This document shows, in pieces, positions 42,531-60,129 of a DNA stretch of 64,000 bases. The DNA lies in contig NZ_BMPF01000001.1 of assembly GCF_014647455.2 (NCBI RefSeq), forward strand, positions 1 to 64,000, read 5' to 3'. Source of the DNA: Halarchaeum grantii. GTDB lineage: Archaea; Halobacteriota; Halobacteria; Halobacteriales; Halobacteriaceae. Below the pieces are notes generated by a model, which was given only the letters and a program-made list of their open reading frames with translations, did not search any database and was not told the origin of the DNA. Position numbers and translations under genes: made by a program. Each line of letters opens with the position of its first letter. Position 1 is the stretch's first letter.

Positions 42531-42558
42531 GAAACACTTGCAACGGTGGGGGGTGTTG
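42531..42558 (+). repeat. Isolated ORB-like element far from the orc gene
   Basis: GAAACACTTGCAACGGTGG followed by a G run matches the origin repeats at 49.0-51.3 kb almost perfectly (GAAACACTTGCA then RCGGTGG and a G-rich tail). It stands alone in the 240-bp gap between the CHY gene and rpl11, G-tail pointing right. Origin-recognition site or stray copy. Confidence 0.6.
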
Positions 42559-46295: not shown

Positions 46296-46571
46296 CTACG
46301 GCTCGATGTGTGAGCGAACCCAGTTCGTCTGGCGCTCGAGCCACTCGCGACCGGCGTCGGTCATGACGTAGGCGTTCGTTCGGCCGTCCGCGTGGTGTTT
46401 CTCGACGAAGCCGCGTTCGCAGAGCGAGTCGAGGTGGTGGTAGAGTTGCTCGCTGCGAATCGTGGCGTCGTGATACTCCTCCAGTTCCCGTTTGATGTCC
46501 TGCCCGCACGGGTCGCCGTAGTCGGCGACAAGGACGAGCATCTCGCGCTGCAGGGCGTGGAGCGTCCGCAT
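46296..46571 (-). CDS. PadR-family transcriptional regulator
   Basis: 91-residue winged HTH: LHALQREMLVLVADYGDPCG, IKRELEEYHDATIRSEQLYH, HLDSLCERGFVEKHHADGRT, NAYVMTDAGREWLERQTNW. This is the short PadR form with just the DNA-binding domain. A TATA-like CCGTATTTAGCG lies 75-85 bp upstream on the minus strand. Ligand and targets unknown. Confidence 0.88.
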   Translation of the reverse strand: MRTLHALQREMLVLVADYGDPCGQDIKRELEEYHDATIRSEQLYHHLDSLCERGFVEKHHADGRTNAYVMTDAGREWLERQTNWVRSHIEP

Positions 46572-46675
46572 CGACTACTGGATAGCCCCGCGTCGTAATC
46601 AACCTGTTGCGACTGGCGGCATTTCCGGGCCCCGCGAACCCCGCTAAATACGGTAGCGTGTGACAGTGTGTCGAA

Positions 46676-47476
46676 TTACTCGGGGAGGAGGTCGTCGGGA
46701 GCGCCGGCGAGACCGGCGAGGGCGTCGGCCTCGACGTGGTGGAGGTCGCCCGGGACGACGAGCATGTGGAGGGGGGCACCGAACGACTCGTCGGCGAGGC
46801 GGTCGAGGCGGTCGGCGCGCACCACGGGGTCGGGGCTGCCGGCGCGCGCGACGACGACGCCGAGCGCGTCCGGGTCCCACGCCTCCGCGAGCAGGCCCGC
46901 CGCGTAGTCCGCGCTCATGTACTCCTCGAAGTCGGGGTCCTCGCCCTCGGGCCCGCGTCCGACCTTGATGTCGAGGTAACAGAGCGTGTGGAGTCCGCGT
47001 TCGCGGTTGTCCTCGAGCGTCGCGATGACCGAGTCGGGAACGACGTCCGCGCCGTGCGCCCACTCGAAGGGGAGCGTCGTCGCCTTCCCGAAGCGGTAGT
47101 TCTGGAGTCCCGTGAGCGACGAGGCCGCGGACTCGGCCGTCGGCGCGTGGATCACGCGCGTCTCGATGCCGCGCTCGTGCGCGCGGAGTCGGAGGTCGAC
47201 GTGCGTCGTCGAGATCATGGTGTCGCCGGCGGTGAGGAAGACGGCGTCACCGGCTTCGGCGGCGTCGAGGATCCGCTCGGGGTGCTGTTCGACGCCCGCG
47301 CGGTCGCGGACCTCGATATCGGTGTCGTGGTAGGCTTCGAGGTCCGAGACGTCCGCGCCGACGAGATGGCTCGTGTAGAACTCCGCGAACGCCCGGTCCG
47401 CGGCGGCGATGGCGTCGCGCCCCTCGACGGTCACCGAGGACTCGTCGTAGAGGCCGAGGCCGACGAACGTGAGCAT
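46676..47476 (-). CDS. dphB: Diphthine synthase
   Basis: 266 residues, SAM-dependent methyltransferase of diphthamide synthesis on translation elongation factor 2. MLTFVGLGLYDESSVTVEGR, VFLTAGDTMISTTHVDLRLR, ESAASSLTGLQNYRFGKATT (SAM-binding loop), TLCYLDIKV and VVVARAGSPDPVVRADRL are all family phrases. The ATG at 47476 begins directly at the conserved strand. Divergent from trm5 over 91 bp. Confidence 0.95.
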   Translation of the reverse strand: MLTFVGLGLYDESSVTVEGRDAIAAADRAFAEFYTSHLVGADVSDLEAYHDTDIEVRDRAGVEQHPERILDAAEAGDAVFLTAGDTMISTTHVDLRLRAHERGIETRVIHAPTAESAASSLTGLQNYRFGKATTLPFEWAHGADVVPDSVIATLEDNRERGLHTLCYLDIKVGRGPEGEDPDFEEYMSADYAAGLLAEAWDPDALGVVVARAGSPDPVVRADRLDRLADESFGAPLHMLVVPGDLHHVEADALAGLAGAPDDLLPE

Positions 47477-47567
47477 ACGCGTCACTGGGTCGGCGGCGCG
47501 GATACGGGTTTCGTTGCGCTCGCGCGCGAACGCCAGCGGTAAGGCCGTCCGCGCCCTTTTCGTTCGC

Positions 47568-48623
47568 ATGCACGCGCCCTGCGTCCGCGTCCCGACCGAC
47601 GCGGGCGAGCGGACCCGCAAGCGCCTCGCGGACGCCGACCTCGTCGACGAGACGCTCGATATCGCCGTCGCGGACGGCAGCCTCTATATCCCGGTGAGCG
47701 ACCGTGAGGCCGTCCCGGACGACCTCGCAGTCGTCGAGCACGACGTCCCCGAGCGCGAGACGCAGACGACGCCCGCCGACCTGCTGGGCTTCGAGCCGTC
47801 CTACGAACGCCTCGGCGACGTCGTCATCCTCGACGAGGACGACCCGGCGCGCGCCGCCCGCATCGCGGACGCCGTCGTCGAATCGGACGTCCGCGCCCGG
47901 AGCGTCGTCGACCGCGCCTCGAAAGTGAAGGGCGAGACCCGCGTGCGCGACTGGGACGTCCTCGCGTTCGAGGGCGACGAGCCGGCATCGCGCTCGCCGA
48001 CGGCGACCGTCCACCGCGAGTACGGTTGTGAGTTCGCGCTCGACATCGCCGACGTCTACTTCTCGCCGCGGCTCGCGACCGAACGCCACCGCGTCGTCCA
48101 GCAGGTGGGCGAGGGCGAGCACGCCTTCGATATGTTCGCCGGCGTGGGCCCCTACGCGATACCGATGGCGAAGGCCGGCGCGGAGGTCGTCGCCACCGAC
48201 ATCAACGAGACCGCCATCGACTACCTCCGCGAGAACGCCGCACGCAACGGCGTCGCCGACCGGATCACCGCCTACGCGGGCGACGTCCGTGACCTCGTCT
48301 CGAGCACGGCAGGCGGGGAGCGGGCCGACGGAGGTCGAGAAGCGGTCGAGACGTACGACGGGTGGGCCGACCGCCTCGTCATGAACCTCCCGCACACCGC
48401 CGACGAGTTCCTCGACACCGCCGTCGCGCTCGCCGGCGAGGAGTGCGTCCTCCACTACTACGACATCCAGCACGAGGACGACCGCTACGCGCCCGGCGAG
48501 GCCGCGATTCGCGCCGCCGCCGAGCCCGAGTACGAGGTGTCCGTCGAGACGCGCCACACCGTCCGCTCCTACGCGCCCCACGAGTACAACGTCTGTCTCG
48601 ACGTCCGGCTACGGCGAGCCTGA
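47568..48623 (+). CDS. trm5: tRNA (guanine37-N1)-methyltransferase, Trm5 type
   Basis: 351 residues. An N-terminal recognition domain (CVRVPTDAGERTRKRLADAD, YIPVSDREAVP), then the Rossmann methyltransferase: FALDIADVYFSPRLATERHR, FDMFAGVGPYAIPMAKAGAE (SAM motif), VVATDINETAIDYLRENAAR and NLPHTADEFLDTAV with the catalytic NLP. C-terminal SYAPHEYNVCLDVRLRR. Methylates G37 of tRNA and provides m1G for wyosine-type derivatives. Confidence 0.94.
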   Translation: MHAPCVRVPTDAGERTRKRLADADLVDETLDIAVADGSLYIPVSDREAVPDDLAVVEHDVPERETQTTPADLLGFEPSYERLGDVVILDEDDPARAARIADAVVESDVRARSVVDRASKVKGETRVRDWDVLAFEGDEPASRSPTATVHREYGCEFALDIADVYFSPRLATERHRVVQQVGEGEHAFDMFAGVGPYAIPMAKAGAEVVATDINETAIDYLRENAARNGVADRITAYAGDVRDLVSSTAGGERADGGREAVETYDGWADRLVMNLPHTADEFLDTAVALAGEECVLHYYDIQHEDDRYAPGEAAIRAAAEPEYEVSVETRHTVRSYAPHEYNVCLDVRLRRA

Positions 48624-48747
48624 GCGCGCGACCGGGAGCGGGGTCCGTCCCGCCGATGCGATCCGATTCGCAAGCCTTATTTCTCCCATGCGGCTACGAG
48701 GTAGTGCACACACGGTGCCTGACGTCGTGGAGGCAGGCATAGTGCGC

Positions 48748-48820
48748 GCCGGTGTAGCTCAGCTGGCAGAGCGATTCCTTCGTAAGGAATAGGTCGAGGG
48801 TTCAAATCCCTCCACCGGCT
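48748..48820 (+). tRNA. tRNA-Thr (anticodon CGT)
   Basis: Acceptor stem GCCGGTG/CACCGGC, D arm GCTC/GAGC, anticodon arm ATTCC-TTCGTAA-GGAAT giving CGT (ACG codons), T arm GAGGG TTCAAAT CCCTC. No intron, CCA not encoded. A TATA-like CCTTATTTC lies about 70 bp upstream. It borders the left end of the replication origin region. Confidence 0.98.
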
Positions 48821-48877
48821 CTTCTCCGTTTCACCGTCTCTGTTAGCGGCGCCTCCGTCATTCCCGGCTGTTTCTTC

Positions 48878-48898
48878 GAAACGGTTGCAACAGTAGGG
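48878..48898 (+). repeat. Degenerate ORB-like element
   Basis: GAAACGGTTGCAACAGTAGG shares GAAAC, TTGCA and the G-rich end with the consensus but lacks the ACACTTGC core. It lies 58 bp after tRNA-Thr. Orientation opposite to its left-arm neighbours. Confidence 0.35.
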
Positions 48899-49030
48899 AG
48901 TCAGCTCTGCTCAGTGGCGGGCGACGCGTCTCGCAACGACCGGTGCGTTCTCGTGGAAGCCGCTGATGCACCCGCCGTCGACGTGGTCGGACAGATCCGT
49001 TGCGGCGAGGGGCGAGACGTGACCAGCACC

Positions 49031-49055
49031 CACACCCCACCGTTGCAAGTGTTCC
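49031..49055 (-). repeat. ORB-like element, left arm copy 1
   Basis: Minus strand reads GGAACACTTGCAACGGTGG followed by GGTGTG. Full match to the core apart from AAC in place of AGC. Confidence 0.75.
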
Positions 49056-49090
49056 ATCCATTCTGTCTGGTGGGACGAGCGGGCGGTGGC

Positions 49091-49118
49091 CCCACACACC
49101 ACCGCTGCAAGTGTTTCG
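49091..49118 (-). repeat. ORB-like element, left arm copy 2
   Basis: Minus strand reads GAAACACTTGCAGCGGTGG then TGTGTGGG, an exact consensus copy. It is 60 bp from copy 1 and directly precedes the G-rich tract. Confidence 0.8.
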
Positions 49119-49130
49119 CGGTGTGCCGGT

Positions 49131-49173
49131 GGGGGAGGGGATGGGGTGGGTGAGGGATGGGGATGACCGGGGG
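49131..49173 (+). other. G-quadruplex-type G-rich tract in the origin
   Basis: Seven runs of three to five G (at 49131, 49137, 49143, 49148, 49154, 49159, 49169) separated by loops of one to six bases, all on the plus strand. This satisfies the usual four-run G-quadruplex rule several times over. Confidence 0.65.
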
Positions 49174-49251
49174 TGCGAGCCCGACCGTCGGCCGGGGTGG
49201 CCGGAAGCGCGACGGGGCCACCGACTAGCTCGTCGGCACGAGTCCGGGGGA

Positions 49252-49278
49252 GGGGGACACCACCGCTGCAAGTGTTCC
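49252..49278 (-). repeat. ORB-like element, left arm copy 3
   Basis: Minus strand reads GGAACACTTGCAGCGGTGG then TGTCCCCC. The core is exact but the tail is C-rich instead of G-rich, the only such copy. Confidence 0.75.
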
Positions 49279-49425
49279 GCGACGAGGAGGGGGCCACGGA
49301 AATCGGTGGTGACGTCGAGCGCGGACCTCGATGCCGACCGCGGAGCGGCCGACGGGGCGCTGAAGAGGCGTATTACGGTGGACACCGATCACTGCTTGGA
49401 TTCCGTTCGTTCCCCTGTCTCTTCT

Positions 49426-49510
49426 CTAGCTAGTTGCTAGCTAGTACTAGTAGTGCTAGTAGTAGCATTTATCACCGGTACACAAAGATTGATTCATATG
49501 CTAGATTCGT
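49426..49510. other. AT-rich CTAG-dense patch, candidate duplex-unwinding element
   Basis: About 85 bp with much lower GC than the surroundings. It holds seven CTAG tetranucleotides, several overlapping as CTAGCTAG and ACTAGTAGTGCTAGTAGTAG. CTAG is otherwise rare in this window. It lies inside the two ORB arms, between left copy 3 and the end of orc1/cdc6, where a melting region would be expected. Confidence 0.5.
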
Positions 49511-49663
49511 TACGGCGCACTCCGAGTTCGTCTTGCGTCCTCCGGCCGATTGTCACGGACCCGGGTCCGTTTCTCCGTGTCGAACGCGGGTCGAGAAGAT
49601 AGTTCGGGTGGTCTCGATGTCTCCGTCGTCGTGTCGGTTGTCCGTCTCGGGGCGGGCGCGTGT

Positions 49664-50917
49664 TCAGGTCGGGTCGGTCGGATCGAGGAGGCCCTGTCGC
49701 TCGGCGGCCGCGCGGAGGTGGTCGGTCTTGAGGTTCTGCGTTATCGCGAGGCCGTCGAGCGTCGTCACGACGGCGTCGACCGCGACACCGAGCTCGTATT
49801 CGTAGTACGCGCCGCCGCTACGCCCCTCGTTTCGTTCGTGGCGCTTCAGGATGCCGAGCATCACGAGGTCGGAGAGGTGGGCGTGGAGGCTCCGCATCGC
49901 GAGCGGGTCGTGGCCGGTCGCTTCGGCGACCTCCTCGTAGCGGTCGTAGATCGTCTGACGGCGCACCGGCATCTCCTCACCGAACACCGTCAGGTAGGTG
50001 ATCGTGTAGAGGGTGAGGTGGTCGTGGCTCGTCAGGTCCTTCATCGATTCTTCTATCTGGCGCTTCTCGAGGCGCGAGCGCGCGTCTCGTACGTGCTCCT
50101 CGGTGACGCGCCGGTCGTCGCGACGCCGCGCGAGGTCACCTGCCTCGAAGAGGAGATCGAGGGCTTGCCGGGCGCTTCCCCGGTCCTGGGCGGCGAGCGC
50201 CGAGCAGAGCGGGACGACGTCCTCGGAGAGCACGCCGTCGCGGAAGGCGAGGTCGGAGCGCTTCTCGAGGATGTTCCGGAGTTCGTTCCCGTCGTAGGGC
50301 GGGAAGTGGATCTCGCGCTCGCAGAGCGTGTCCTCGACGCGCGGGTCGAGTTGCTCGCGGAACTTGAAGTCGTTCGAGATGCCGATGATGCCGACTTTGG
50401 CGTCGTGGAGGTTCTCGTTCGAGCGGGCACGCGGGATCTGGTAGAGGAGGCTATCGTCGTCGCCGATGTAGTCGATCTCGTCGAGGACGACGAGGATGGT
50501 GCCGCCAACCGTCTCCAATTCCTCCCACAGCATGTCGTAGACGGCGTCGCGCGGATAGCCCGTCGTCGAAATCTCCTCGCCGTCCTCGCGGAGCTCGTTC
50601 ACGAGGTTCACGGCGACGCGGTAGGAGGAGGTGAGGTGCTCGCAGTTGAGGTAGACCGTCGTGATGTCGAGGTCGTCGTAGCGTTCGGCGTCGCGTTCGA
50701 GGTGCGAGAGGAGGTACTTCGTGGCCACGGTCTTCCCGACGCCGGTCTTCCCGTAGAGGAAGATGTTGCGGGGTTGTTTACCGTTGATGACGGGTTGGAA
50801 GTACGCCTTGTACTCCTCGAGTTCCTCGTCGCGCTCCTCGATGCGCTCCGGTTGGTAGTCATCGCGGAGCACGTCCTCGTCGGCGAAGATGGCGTGCGTC
50901 CGCTCGAAGACCGTCAT
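49664..50917 (-). CDS. orc1: Orc1/Cdc6-family replication initiator
   Basis: 417-residue AAA+ initiator. Walker A GKTGVGKT at 56-63, Walker B LVVLDEID (about 142-149), sensor 1 GISND near 179-183, sensor 2 GSARQAL at 247-253, and a C-terminal winged helix (SHDHLTLYTITYLTVFGEEM, MRSLHAHLSDLVMLGILKRH). Binds ORB repeats and loads MCM. The start ATG 50917 has TATA-like GTTTTAACC 28 bp upstream; codons further upstream encode a Gln-Thr repeat from tandem DNA repeats and are not used. Paralog number (orc1, orc2 and so on) cannot be decided. Confidence 0.95.
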   Translation of the reverse strand: MTVFERTHAIFADEDVLRDDYQPERIEERDEELEEYKAYFQPVINGKQPRNIFLYGKTGVGKTVATKYLLSHLERDAERYDDLDITTVYLNCEHLTSSYRVAVNLVNELREDGEEISTTGYPRDAVYDMLWEELETVGGTILVVLDEIDYIGDDDSLLYQIPRARSNENLHDAKVGIIGISNDFKFREQLDPRVEDTLCEREIHFPPYDGNELRNILEKRSDLAFRDGVLSEDVVPLCSALAAQDRGSARQALDLLFEAGDLARRRDDRRVTEEHVRDARSRLEKRQIEESMKDLTSHDHLTLYTITYLTVFGEEMPVRRQTIYDRYEEVAEATGHDPLAMRSLHAHLSDLVMLGILKRHERNEGRSGGAYYEYELGVAVDAVVTTLDGLAITQNLKTDHLRAAAERQGLLDPTDPT

Positions 50918-50937
50918 GGACACCGGGTAGTCGCCCC

Positions 50938-50969
50938 CTTCGGTTAAAACCCACCGATGCGAGTGTTGC
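50938..50969 (-). promoter_or_regulatory. orc1/cdc6 promoter overlapping a weak ORB-like half-site
   Basis: On the minus strand CAACACTCGCATCGGTGGG runs straight into TTTTAACCG, which is 28 bp before the ATG. The first part matches the origin element at GTG-rich positions (ACACT.GCA.CGGTGG), so the initiator could bind over its own promoter. Confidence 0.45.
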
Positions 50970-50999
50970 GTCTGTTGCACCTGTTGCGTCTGTTGTGCG
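50964..50999 (+). repeat. Four 9-bp tandem repeats upstream of orc1/cdc6
   Basis: Units TGTTGCGTC, TGTTGCACC, TGTTGCGTC and TGTTGTGCG follow each other without gaps, 47-82 bp upstream of the initiator start. Units 1 and 3 are identical. Confidence 0.8.
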
Positions 51000-51049
51000 C
51001 GTGGGCCGGTGTGGCGCTGTGCGCCCGCTCCTACCCGTGCCGTCGGGGT

Positions 51050-51078
51050 GAAACACTTGCAGCGGTGGTGTGTGGGGG
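51050..51078 (+). repeat. ORB-like element, right arm copy 1
   Basis: GAAACACTTGCAGCGGTGG then TGTGTGGGGG, exact consensus with full G tail. Confidence 0.8.
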
Positions 51079-51181
51079 TGTCGCGCGTCCGCGTCGGCGA
51101 CGCGGTGGTTCCCCATTGTCCCCGCCTGTTGCCCACGGGTGCACGGCGGTAGTCGTCCGCCACCCCTGCCCTCGTTCGGCA

Positions 51182-51209
51182 GAACACTTGCAGTAGTGGT
51201 GTGTGGGGG
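51182..51209 (+). repeat. ORB-like element, right arm copy 2
   Basis: GAACACTTGCAGTAGTGG then TGTGTGGGGG; two changes in the CGG block, tail intact. Confidence 0.78.
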
Positions 51210-51252
51210 TCACCTGCTCGACCGGCCGCCCCCACTCCCGCCGCTTCGCACC

Positions 51253-51280
51253 GGAACACTTGCAGCGGTGGTGTGTGTGG
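51253..51280 (+). repeat. ORB-like element, right arm copy 3
   Basis: GGAACACTTGCAGCGGTGG then TGTGTGTGG; exact core with a slightly altered tail. Confidence 0.8.
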
Positions 51281-51311
51281 GCCACCGTCCATCGGCCCCT
51301 CCTGCGTCGCG

Positions 51312-51340
51312 AAACACTTGCAGCAGTGGTGTGTGGGGGC
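51312..51340 (+). repeat. ORB-like element, right arm copy 4
   Basis: GAAACACTTGCAGCAGTGG then TGTGTGGGGG, ending 3 bp before the stop codon of the nuclease gene. This is the outermost right copy. Confidence 0.8.
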
Positions 51341-51343
51341 GGC

Positions 51344-52360
51344 CTACGCGTACGTGTGGCGCGCGAGTAGGGTGTCGTTCGCCGACCGGACGATGACCGT
51401 ATCGCCGCCGTTGTTCCAGATCGGCCGCTCGCTCCCCCAGTAGTACTCCTCCGCCGTATCGTCGCCGCTCCCGGTGTGGAGCGTGAGCGACGCACCGGCG
51501 TCGAGCGTCGCGCCTGTCGGGAACGTGTAGGTGTGGCCCGCCTCATCCGCGACCGTCGCGCCGCCGAGGTCGATTCCGGCGTCCCCCCCGTTCCGCAGCA
51601 CGACGTACTCGTCGTTCAGGTTGTCGCCGTCCGGGCCCGCCGCGTCGGCGTGGACGGACGCGACGGCGAGGGGACTCGCGTCGCCTGCGGTGTCGGTCGA
51701 CGTGCGGTCCTCCGTTCCGTCGTCGGTAGCTCCGCCGTCAGCCCCGTCAGCCCCGCACTGCCAGAGGCCCGAGCGCGCGTCGTAGGCGGTGTCGGCCGCG
51801 TCGAGGAACGTCGCCTTCCGCGAGAAGTCGCTCGCCGTGTAGACGCGCGCGAGGCCGCGCTCGACGAGCGCGTAGTTCTGGTTCGTCCCGTTCGCGTAGA
51901 CGTACGCGAGCAGGCGGCCGTAGTAGCCACGGCGGTCGGTGTTCGGGTCGAACGCGAGCGTCACCCGCGCGCCGTCGAGGCGCTTCGTGTAGTCGCTCGC
52001 GCGGTGTCCCCACGACCGCAGGCAGTCGCGGGTCGCGGACGTGTTCGCCATTCCCCGGAACTCCGCCGGCGTGTTCCGCACCCACACCTCCGGGGTGTCG
52101 ACGCCGACGAGTCGGACGGTCTCCGTTGTCCCGTTCGCCAGTCGGACGTCCACCGTGTCGCCGTCCGCGACGTCGACGACCGTCGCGTTCAGCGTCTCGC
52201 CTTGCGGTGCGAGCGCCGTGTCGTTCGCGCCCGCGCCAGTCACTCCGGTGCTCCGCGTCGCGTCCGTCCCGCCCGTCGCCGGCGGCGACCCGACCGCGCC
52301 ACAGCCCGCGAGCGCGCAGAGGGCGCAGAGGGCGACCGCGAGAAGCGTCCGTCTGTTCAC
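51344..52360 (-). CDS. Secreted lipoprotein: thermonuclease plus lamin-tail domain
   Basis: 338 residues from GTG 52360. Signal TLLAVALCALCALAGC with lipobox LAGC (lipidated Cys 20). Residues about 55-190 are an SNase/thermonuclease domain: VDVADGDTVDVRLANG, VRLVGVDTPEV (catalytic Arg/Asp), NTDRRGYYGRLLAYVY, YALVERGLARVY. Residues about 230-338 are a lamin-tail domain: LNDEYVVLRNGGDAGIDLGG, GHTYTFPTGATLDAGASLTL, IWNNGGDTVIVRSANDTLL. Likely attacks extracellular nucleic acid at the membrane surface. It ends against the origin repeats. Confidence 0.9.
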   Translation of the reverse strand: MNRRTLLAVALCALCALAGCGAVGSPPATGGTDATRSTGVTGAGANDTALAPQGETLNATVVDVADGDTVDVRLANGTTETVRLVGVDTPEVWVRNTPAEFRGMANTSATRDCLRSWGHRASDYTKRLDGARVTLAFDPNTDRRGYYGRLLAYVYANGTNQNYALVERGLARVYTASDFSRKATFLDAADTAYDARSGLWQCGADGADGGATDDGTEDRTSTDTAGDASPLAVASVHADAAGPDGDNLNDEYVVLRNGGDAGIDLGGATVADEAGHTYTFPTGATLDAGASLTLHTGSGDDTAEEYYWGSERPIWNNGGDTVIVRSANDTLLARHTYA

Positions 52361-52473
52361 TCCCGGTCGTTCTGCCGCGTGAGCCTTAACCCCCCGGCTA
52401 TCGGCCGCTCGTCTCACCCGCCGCCTCGCCTCGTTCACACCCGATCGTGGCGTCGCTCGTCCGCGCGGCACCC

Positions 52474-54597
52474 TCAATCGCGCCACCGCCGCCGAGTCGC
52501 CATCGCGAGCACGACGCCGATGAGGACGCCGAGAACGCCCGTGACGGGCCCGAACCCGGGGACGCCGGGAACGAGGGCGCCGCCGCTCACCTCGACGGTC
52601 GCGTTCCGTTCGCCGACGCGGACCGTGTGCGTGCCGCCGGACTCGAACGTCACCGTGAACGTGCCCGTCACCGACTCGTTCGGCGCGAGGTAGGGCGTCC
52701 ACGTTCCCGTCCGCCGGCCGTCGACGGTGATCGCGTACGTCGCGTTCGCGGGATGCGACGACGGGTTCGCCACCTCGACGGTCACTCCGACCGGCTGACT
52801 CGCGTTCACCGCGCTCCGGTTCAGCGAGAGCGAGCGAACCACCGGCGTCGCCGGACGCGCCACCTCGATCTCGATCTCGCGATAACCGAGGTCGAGGACG
52901 TAGTCGTCGGCCTCCGTGAGCGTCGCGTCGAGCGAGACGCGCGTCGACGCACCGCCGTCCAGTCGCCCGCCCGCCTCCGCGACGACGGTGCCGTTCCGAC
53001 GGAGCGTCGCCTCGTACGCCCCGGCGTGCTCGCCGTGGTTCGTGACCGTCGCGTTCAGGACGAGCGTCTCGCCGGTCGCGAGCGTCGTCGTCCCCGTCGC
53101 CACGTCGAGCGACGCGTTCCGCCACGGCCCGTGCGCCGCGAGCGCGTCGCCGTCAAGTGCGAACGCCATGCGCGGCGGGGACTCACCGAACGCCCGCTCG
53201 TGCGCGGCGTATGACCACGCCTCGGGGGCGGCGTCCGTCCCCGTGTAGCGCGCGGCGGCGTCGCGCGTCGCGCTGTCACCGGCGGCCGCGACGGCGTCGA
53301 GGAACTCCGCCTGCGTGACCCTGTCGTCGTCCGCGTTCATGTGCGCGAGCACGGTGTCGAAGCTGTGCTCGGCGTCCGTCGCCGTGCGTATCCGCCGGTC
53401 GAGAGTACCGACGACGAGCGCGCCCTTCAGGTAGTTCGCGAGGCCGCGCCACGTCGTCGGCTCGGCGAGCACCGCGCCCGCGTACGGGTCACGCGTCCCG
53501 CGCGCGAGGTACGACCGGAACTCCTCGTACGTGATGCGGCCCTGTTGGAGCGTGAGGAGGCCGGCGTAGTACTCCGCGCCGCCCTCGAGCGTCCACTTCG
53601 TCGCGTTCGTCGGCGTGTACGCCTGCCGCGTGTGGACGTACTCGTGGAGCCAGACGTTCTCCGGGGCGTCGAGTCGGCTGTCGGCGCGCACCCACGCGTC
53701 GCTTCCGCCGTACTCGAGACCGGACGGCCCCCAGTTCACGCTCGTCGGCGCGGCGACGATGCGGACTTCGGCGTCGCGCGCCCCGCCCGTCATCGCGCCG
53801 GAGGCGTCCGCGAGCGCGTCGAGCACCGACTCGGGGGACTCGCGAAGCGACGCGGCGGCGGGCACGACGAGGCGGAGGCGCTGGCCGTGCGCGCGGCGCT
53901 CGTAGGTCTCGTGCGGGCCGAGGTACGCCATCGCGTTCCCGGCGACACCGGACCCGTCGACGGCCGTCCGCCGCTCGAGACCGACGTGCTCGACGCCGCG
54001 CCACGACCAGTGCGTGCCGAACTGGGGGATGGGGGTTATCGCCCACGCCCCCGTGTCGACGAACGAGTATCCCCCGTCGTCGCTCGCGGCGCCGTCGGCG
54101 GCGTCAGCCGTGCGACTCCGAACTCCCCCGTCGCGACTGGCCGTCACCGCCATCCCGTCCCGCCCCGGCGCGTTCACCACACCCTCGGTGCGCGCGCTGT
54201 GTGGTCCCGTGACCGTCACGCCGCCGTCTCGTTCTCTCACCGTGTCGAGCGCACGGCTCCCGGTGAAGGTCCGGTTCGCGGGCACGCGGAGCGTGATCGA
54301 CGGCGACCCCGTCTCACCGTCCCACTCGTAGCTGTTCGCGCTCGTGTGCGTGAACCCCGAGGTGGCCGTGACGCGCTGGCTGGACGGCACCGTGACGCTG
54401 AGCGCGGTGACGCTCTCCGGCACGTCGTAGCGGACGGTCGCCGTGATTTCGCCCGCCGTCTCCGGTGTGAGCGAGAGCGTCGTCGTCTGCGTGATCGTCG
54501 AGGTATGCGACGCCCGCGCGGCGTCAGCGCCGACACCGACCCCGGCGACCGACGCACAGACGAGGAGGAGCACGAGAGTGAGCGCGCGTGTCCGCAT
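52474..54597 (-). CDS. Large surface protein with HEYVH zinc-protease motif and PGF-CTERM-like anchor
   Basis: 707 residues. Signal [20 protein letters not shown]; an N-terminal beta domain with [15 protein letters not shown]; the catalytic-looking segment [20 protein letters not shown] then [16 protein letters not shown] at about 315-345 (HEXXH plus downstream Glu, gluzincin-like, M1/M61 type); a helical domain; two CARDB/Ig-like repeats ([40 protein letters not shown]); and a C-terminal [20 protein letters not shown] with RRRWRD, the archaeosortase PGF-CTERM layout. Extracellular, anchored. Confidence 0.85.
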
Positions 54598-59745: not shown

Positions 59746-60006
59746 TTAGTCGGCGGCGGGAGCGGGGCTTCCGTCCTCGACGGGACCGACGGGCGCGGCG
59801 TGCTGGTACTGGGTGGCGACGGTTGCGTCGGGCGCGTCGTCGACGGGACCGTTGACGAAGAGGGCGTGTCCGACGAGCACGACGGCCACACTACCCGCAA
59901 CGGGTATCGCGAGCGCCGACTGAAGGCCAGTGAAGTAAAGAGTGGCTGCGACGGCGGCGAACGCGACGGGGATGAGCCCCAGGATGTGGTCGTAATAACT
60001 CGTCAT
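59746..60006 (-). CDS. Small two-span membrane protein under a palindromic operator
   Basis: 86 residues from MTSYYDHILGLIPVAFAAVA; two hydrophobic helices (HILGLIPVAFAAVAATLYFT and ALAIPVAGSVAVVLVGHALF) and a Pro/Ala-rich tail (HAAPVGPVEDGSPAPAAD). The ATG at 60006 is preferred over one at 60051 because TATA lies between them. Layout recalls haloarchaeal DUF7333-like proteins, without certainty. Function unknown. Confidence 0.65.
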   Translation of the reverse strand: MTSYYDHILGLIPVAFAAVAATLYFTGLQSALAIPVAGSVAVVLVGHALFVNGPVDDAPDATVATQYQHAAPVGPVEDGSPAPAAD

Positions 60007-60011
60007 AATGT

Positions 60012-60046
60012 ATTGTATACAATGCCCCATAGTCATATAAGTGTTT
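60012..60046 (-). promoter_or_regulatory. TATA box and perfect 12-bp palindrome at the small membrane gene
   Basis: On the minus strand ACTTATATGAC (60033-60043) is followed by ATTGTATACAAT (60012-60023), an exact palindrome lying between the TATA box and the ATG at 60006. This is the classical place for a repressor operator. A second palindrome CATAAGTTATG is at 60071-60081. The whole stretch is markedly AT-rich. Confidence 0.6.
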
Positions 60047-60129
60047 TCCATAGTTGACTCGTTGCGTATCCATAAGTTATGAGTGTATGAAACAGCGAGA
60101 CCACGGCGCGAAGAGCGTGACGGCGCCGA

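Follow-up and report, generated by a model that had tools for sequence, protein, structure and literature searches.

The 64-kb stretch of Halarchaeum grantii DNA analysed here (the window) carries an orc1/cdc6 initiator gene whose 3' end faces a dense cluster of CTAG tetranucleotides (Table 1). The seven sites start at 49426, 49430, 49437, 49441, 49447, 49456 and 49501, within a patch of 85 bp, and lie 160-238 bp past the end of the gene and 1.4-1.5 kb from its start. On the other side of the cluster are a tRNA-Thr gene and a TRM5-like gene on the + strand. The known neighbours of the cluster, orc on the - strand and tRNA-Thr on the + strand, both end towards it. A search for exact core matches, which weaker ORBs would escape, found one ORB array on each side, and both the cluster and the orc gene lie inside the segment bounded by these inverted arrays. 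Inverted ORBs around an AT-rich element adjoining an orc gene, the arrangement of haloarchaeal Orc/Cdc6-dependent origins, are found at this locus. The sequence-only reading had placed the cluster next to the origin. The association with the origin stands, but the cluster is not merely beside it, because it sits between the two ORB arrays, 3' of orc.

Table 1. Features of the H. grantii locus (positions in the window)
Feature	Position	Strand	Basis or remark
CTAG cluster, TAG triplets in between	49426..49504	none	seven sites
AT-rich, low-stability patch, likely unwinding element (putative)	49424..49510	none	nearest-neighbour stability rank
Conserved core CTAGCTAG-N3-CTAGCTAG	49426..49444	none	same in both sister species except spacer
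Pyrimidine tract adjoining core (purine tract on orc strand)	49410..49425	+	
orc1/cdc6 initiator gene, 417 aa	49664..50917	-	TIGR02928, 459.5 bits; Cdc6_lid and Cdc6_C domains
tRNA-Thr(CGT), 3' end towards cluster	48748..48821	+	
ORB core, left array	49044..49053	+	exact core match
ORB core, left array	49106..49115	+	exact core match
ORB core, left array	49267..49276	+	exact core match
ORB core, right array	51052..51061	-	exact core match
ORB core, right array	51183..51192	-	exact core match
ORB core, right array	51255..51264	-	exact core match
ORB core, right array	51313..51322	-	exact core match

Other scans added little. Cumulative GC skew across the window is lowest at 63.1 kb, away from the cluster, and is uninformative on the origin. 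An Rfam search of 47000-53000 found the tRNA alone, with a second match on the same tRNA below the family cut-off. A scan for sigma-70 promoters and terminators gave nothing useful; archaeal promoters are outside its coverage.

Composition and stability of the CTAG patch

CTAG is scarce in the window: 15 copies are present, where 100 dinucleotide shuffles average 89.5. Seven of these sites are in the patch and 8 in all the rest, which agrees with the earlier claim of seven in 85 bp and few elsewhere. Given this background of 8 sites in 63.9 kb, at least seven CTAG in 85 bp would have a Poisson probability of about 3e-18. When the 85-bp patch was reshuffled with its dinucleotides kept, the mean was 1.6 CTAG and at least seven were reached in 0 of 5000 shuffles. 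The intergenic stretch 48824-49663 has 8 CTAG compared with a shuffled mean of 1.6, and 0 of 5000 shuffles were as high. The H. grantii genome (G000; 3.02 Mb in 13 contigs, 96.8% complete) has four places with three CTAG at gaps of at most 20 bases, and the window cluster is the richest of them in sites. The same genome search with the reversed word GATC as a control gave 80 matches, as compared with 8 for CTAG.

The patch was also said to be AT-rich, and this was confirmed. Its A+T content is 61%, and by nearest-neighbour stability it is the least stable 150-bp site in the window. Over 50, 85 and 100 bp it ranks second, behind a site near 60.0 kb, and is thus one of the window's two least stable patches. 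That other site (about 59990-60095) is the only patch in the 64 kb that is as unstable as the origin patch over 50 to 100 bp.

Each half of the conserved core is a palindrome, and the whole is an inverted repeat with a 3-base spacer that is able to form an 8-bp hairpin with a 3-base loop on one strand. The hairpin can form in all three Halarchaeum species compared below, but it was rejected as a shared feature, because shuffles of the two sister sequences fold as well in 70 of 200 and 44 of 200 cases and the other clusters have different spacing. A fixed CTAG spacing was rejected as well, as the gaps vary widely. In the DnaA-trio of bacterial origins, TAG triplets run away from the initiator box and are bound by DnaA. 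TAG triplets are present in the H. grantii cluster but, relative to the nearest ORB, seemingly run in the opposite direction to the bacterial layout, so that the likeness seems not to hold.

Clusters at other orc genes and in sister species

CTAG clusters of the genus are found mainly beside orc genes. In four Halarchaeum genomes (G000-G003), 15 of 18 clusters adjoin an orc gene, with clusters defined by gaps of at most 20 bases in H. grantii and at most 15 in the other three; at 15 bases throughout, the count is 14 of 17 and the C2 cluster of H. grantii is lost. Three of the 15 are orthologous and lie 3' of orc, and the other twelve are upstream, up to about 0.8 kb away. Of the remaining three clusters, one has no orc in the 12 kb examined, one is a tandem repeat and one a tRNA-like stretch. 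Positions within 1 kb of an orc gene make up about 2% of the genome (19 orc loci assumed), which gives a binomial probability of about 3e-23 for 15 of 18, a value that is overstated because orthologous clusters are not independent. The orc genes with upstream clusters are of different types, and their ORBs differ as well. Other orc loci such as L067, L073 and L076 show the same arrangement of an ORB, then the AT-rich patch and the CTAG cluster, and finally an inverted ORB.

Similar clusters at many unrelated loci had been named as the observation that would speak against a special role. They are not seen in the H. grantii genome, where two of the three other CTAG places adjoin orc1/cdc6 and the third has no orc in the 12 kb examined. 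Outside the genus they are seen in part. Of 29 clusters sampled, one per genome, from the 42 of 59 genomes with a cluster match, 10 have an orc gene within 1.5 kb (8 of 26 with the genus excluded). Among the de-duplicated orc genes of H. grantii, a cluster is upstream in 2 of 18 and downstream in 1 of 18, a total of 3 of 18 including this locus. Most orc genes of this species are without a cluster, and it is therefore not a required part of every origin. The genome has 21 matches to the Orc protein of the window at E 1e-8 or better, on several contigs and with some fragments or split copies.

Enrichment upstream of orc was also found in the wider set of genomes that encode the CTAG methyltransferase homolog described below. 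In these, 23 of 110 orc upstream regions hold a cluster, against 2.3 in shuffles (about tenfold). An orc match is present at 165 of 168 loci (all except L066, L071 and L072); 113 of the 165 listed matches were chosen by score and by hand as the enzyme set, and dropping those with less than 400 bp upstream left the 110, which include two loci chosen for their known clusters (L235 and L236). Inside the orc genes of enzyme genomes CTAG occurs at 0.28 of expectation, and upstream the ratio of observed to expected is 1.06. Part of the upstream rise is thus a loss of avoidance.

The locus of the window is conserved in Halarchaeum nitratireducens (L005) and Halarchaeum rubridurum (L006). Their initiators are 93% identical to that of H. 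grantii. In each sister a CTAG cluster, of five sites in H. nitratireducens and four in H. rubridurum, follows about 200 bp beyond the orc match, on the same (3') side of the gene as in H. grantii. In the three-species alignment the core, written CTAGCTAG-N3-CTAGCTAGA, is kept and the flanks have diverged. With columns that contain gaps scored as variable, the best 40 alignment columns lie over the core and are 72.5% invariant, where the median is 17.5%, a footprint that rests on two sister species, which are few for the purpose. In both sisters the other neighbour is nuclease-like; this gene, encoded on the opposite strand, likewise ends towards the cluster, so that in each of the three species orc and a known neighbour point at the cluster from either side. 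The sisters, too, have inverted ORBs around orc and the cluster. The claimed role at the origin is supported by this conservation in place and by the recurrence of clusters beside orc genes within the genus.

The segment with orc and the CTAG patch (window 48826-51346) is inverted in H. grantii relative to both sisters. Window positions 46318-48610 and 51346-52198 align to the H. nitratireducens locus one way and 49667-50994 the other, and the H. rubridurum locus behaves alike. The turn points map to the intervals 48.8-49.7 and 51.0-51.35 kb, which contain the ORB arrays. The inversion likely arose via recombination between the inverted ORB arrays. Despite the inversion, the cluster has the same position as before with respect to orc and the facing ORBs.

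The CTAG cluster as a putative origin element

Position, conservation in three species, recurrence beside orc, low duplex stability and converging known genes are the observations on which the origin reading is based. The sequence comparisons make it very probable that the cluster is a genuine origin element, and a melting role of the patch is plausible. On balance we consider, with moderate confidence, that the CTAG cluster is a conserved melting-edge element in the core of a putative Orc1/Cdc6-dependent origin, and that methylation is possible but secondary. The cluster would form the edge of an AT-rich unwinding element between inverted ORB arrays bound by the adjacent initiator. Orc on the ORBs might strain the patch, and the stacked TA steps of CTAG might open first or be read by an initiation protein, so that the MCM helicase could be loaded there. 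In hosts with the orphan methyltransferase, m4C on the sites could tune opening or access, but methylation would not be what holds the sites in place. The origin may be dormant.

Elements of this kind have been described before. Blow et al. 2016 (PMC4752239) found that CTAG is clustered upstream of haloarchaeal orc genes in correlation with an orphan CTAG methyltransferase, and proposed a replication role for CTAG methylation. The H. grantii cluster resembles these in being clustered CTAG in non-coding DNA beside orc, in a genome with a methyltransferase homolog. Unlike them, it lies 3' of orc, between convergent ends, and within the one genus compared (g11) no link of clusters to the enzyme was seen. 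In Haloferax volcanii, dense CTAG is reported at one origin only, and a strain with several such genes deleted had no growth defect (Ouellette et al. 2018, PMC5867850). PMC6471742 regards what the motif does as an open question. Some orc genes have ORBs downstream or on both sides (PMC3528665). Inverted ORB arrays, an AT-rich patch and an adjacent initiator gene are shared with known haloarchaeal Orc/Cdc6-adjacent origins (PMC3528665, PMC3936714), but the excerpts of these papers name no CTAG array, and in H. grantii the initiator gene is inside the ORB-bounded segment. In the literature searches, with subscription journals mostly outside their scope, no title or displayed abstract described a CTAG array 3' of orc or its persistence where the enzyme is missing. 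What is new is the location 3' of orc between convergent genes, together with the inversion and the persistence of such clusters in hosts that lack the enzyme; the kind of element was already known.

For clusters upstream of orc, an origin element and an orc promoter element are indistinguishable. In H. grantii and its sisters the cluster is behind the gene, between convergent ends, and its place relative to the ORBs was kept through an inversion, so that the two readings can be separated. Together with clusters in hosts that lack the enzyme, this makes the function of CTAG at haloarchaeal origins directly testable.

Methylation, titration and promoter readings

The sequence-only reading had also suggested a methylation-controlled role in initiation. 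An orphan m4C enzyme would mark the cluster, and hemimethylation after replication would delay re-initiation, as with Dam and SeqA at E. coli oriC. In both cases a methyltransferase target word is grouped in an origin. However, the word and the type of enzyme differ from the E. coli GATC system, and CTAG clusters persist without the enzyme. H. grantii encodes a methyltransferase homolog at C1:542620-543660 with 48.2% identity over 93% to the enzyme of plasmid pFZ1. The pFZ1 gene, which we take to be M.MthZI, stands beside an MjaI-family endonuclease. Both M.MthZI and M.MjaI target CTAG. A search for RE_MjaI found none in H. grantii and a match in only one of 59 genomes (G026), and the neighbours of the H. 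grantii methyltransferase are a succinyl-CoA ligase subunit and a transporter, not restriction genes. By homology, it is predicted to be an orphan CTAG m4C methyltransferase. These features, and the published correlation of clusters with the enzyme (PMC4752239), are consistent with a methylation switch.

The distribution of clusters argues against it. The enzyme is present in 55 of 59 genomes at E 1e-20, H. grantii included, with absence meaning no match at this threshold (other enzymes with a CTAG target could exist) and with the copy of G001, split between two frames, counted as present. In the genus g11, in which the enzyme is confined to 8 of 52 genomes, no co-occurrence was seen. When clusters were counted anywhere in the genome, orc-adjacent or not, half of the genomes had them in either group (4 of 8 with the enzyme, 22 of 44 lacking it; means 1.13 and 1.23, Mann-Whitney p = 1.0). 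Forty-five g11 cluster loci were examined; an orc match occurred somewhere in 11 of them, and in 8 of the 11 it was of a plasmid type. The plasmid-type orc origin holds 4-5 CTAGs in seven hosts without the enzyme and 3-5 in seven hosts with it, in a hand-picked set of fourteen in which L275, L292 and L299 read alike. Plasmid-type replicons may have been transferred recently between hosts, which softens this evidence of retention. With L235 and L236 left out and repeats merged, clusters are upstream of orc in 21 of 107 cases with the enzyme and 1 of 16 (from 17) without it (Fisher p = 0.30, a small test); the same merging left 18 of the 21 orc matches of H. grantii itself. At chromosomal orc genes the clusters may be tied to the enzyme. 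Genomes without the enzyme avoid CTAG inside orc genes at least as strongly (0.17 of expectation vs 0.28 with it). In Haloferax lucertense (the spelling of that paper), unmethylated CTAG is concentrated in low-GC regions (PMC11001535), which also speaks against a switch. Thus the encoded enzyme and the missing endonuclease agree with the earlier suggestion, but the equal counts in g11 and the CTAGs kept in the plasmid-type origin do not, and we regard methylation as the main function of the cluster as unlikely.

The plasmid-type orc origin is common to several genera (L310, L268, L292, L283, L270, L205, L235 and L236). Most of these have an ORB-like GAACAA(A/G)TCGATAG...GTTCT, followed by the CTAG array and then a purine tract. 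Overall, a purine/pyrimidine tract adjoins 13 of 39 distinct clusters compared with 7% of control positions, an enrichment whose significance is overstated because the clusters come from about five orc families and the cut-off was set once, after the sequences had been inspected. The tract is present at the H. grantii, H. rubridurum and plasmid-type clusters, and that of H. nitratireducens is just under the cut-off. The CTAG array and the purine tract might together form a methylation-independent origin-core signal that several unrelated Orc families share. A common protein, for example the MCM loader, might read it, or Orc might open it first, and CTAG might be rare elsewhere partly to confine this signal to origins. 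We offer this idea tentatively and consider it improbable.

Another explanation is that the 3' ORB array and the patch titrate the initiator. In Haloarcula hispanica, oriC2D is an array of 11 ORBs downstream of cdc6E that restrains the origin (PMC3936714). The H. grantii array could be a similar sink for Cdc6, with the true origin 5' of orc and the CTAGs incidental or regulatory. ORBs downstream of the initiator gene are common to both loci, and ORBs on both sides of orc are also found at cdc6E with its restraining array (PMC3936714). The H. grantii locus, however, has three ORB cores and a low-stability CTAG patch in place of eleven ORBs with a negative action, and this patch is on the 3' side of orc. 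Furthermore, the four exact cores 5' of orc have one orientation and the three 3' cores the opposite one. As the orientation is uniform on each side, inverted pairs occur only across the orc gene and the patch. Titration is, on this analysis, quite improbable.

A promoter or regulator site of a gene, for example orc itself, would fit the twelve other orc-adjacent clusters of the genus, which are upstream of orc, and the enrichment of CTAG before gene starts in Haloferax lucertense (PMC11001535). A TTTATC box at 49468-49473 lies about 27 bases before an ATG at 49498 that begins a 34-codon frame. Long open frames typical of high-GC DNA span the region in all three species, so that an unknown gene is possible, but four frames across the region of the window had no Pfam match. 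The 34-codon frame is without a match at the H. nitratireducens locus and has a 19-residue match (E 0.025) at that of H. rubridurum. The distance of the cluster from the orc start, its place 3' of orc between convergent known genes in three species and the poor matches of the small frame make a promoter of orc or of the small gene very unlikely, and it was rejected. Finally, chance or a relaxed avoidance of CTAG in AT-rich intergenic DNA would account for the near-expected frequency upstream of orc genes, but it is hardly credible for clustering tenfold above shuffles, a patch above all 5000 of its own shuffles and a core conserved in three species.

Two smaller observations concern other sites. 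A lone ORB core, AACACTTGCA then ACGGTGGGGG, lies at 42533-42542, about 6.5 kb from the origin, and is possibly a stray binding or titration site. At L067, L073 and L076, which represent a second orc type with upstream clusters, the CTAG sites have CTACTA or CACTAC to one side and TAGTAG to the other, forming an imperfect palindrome.
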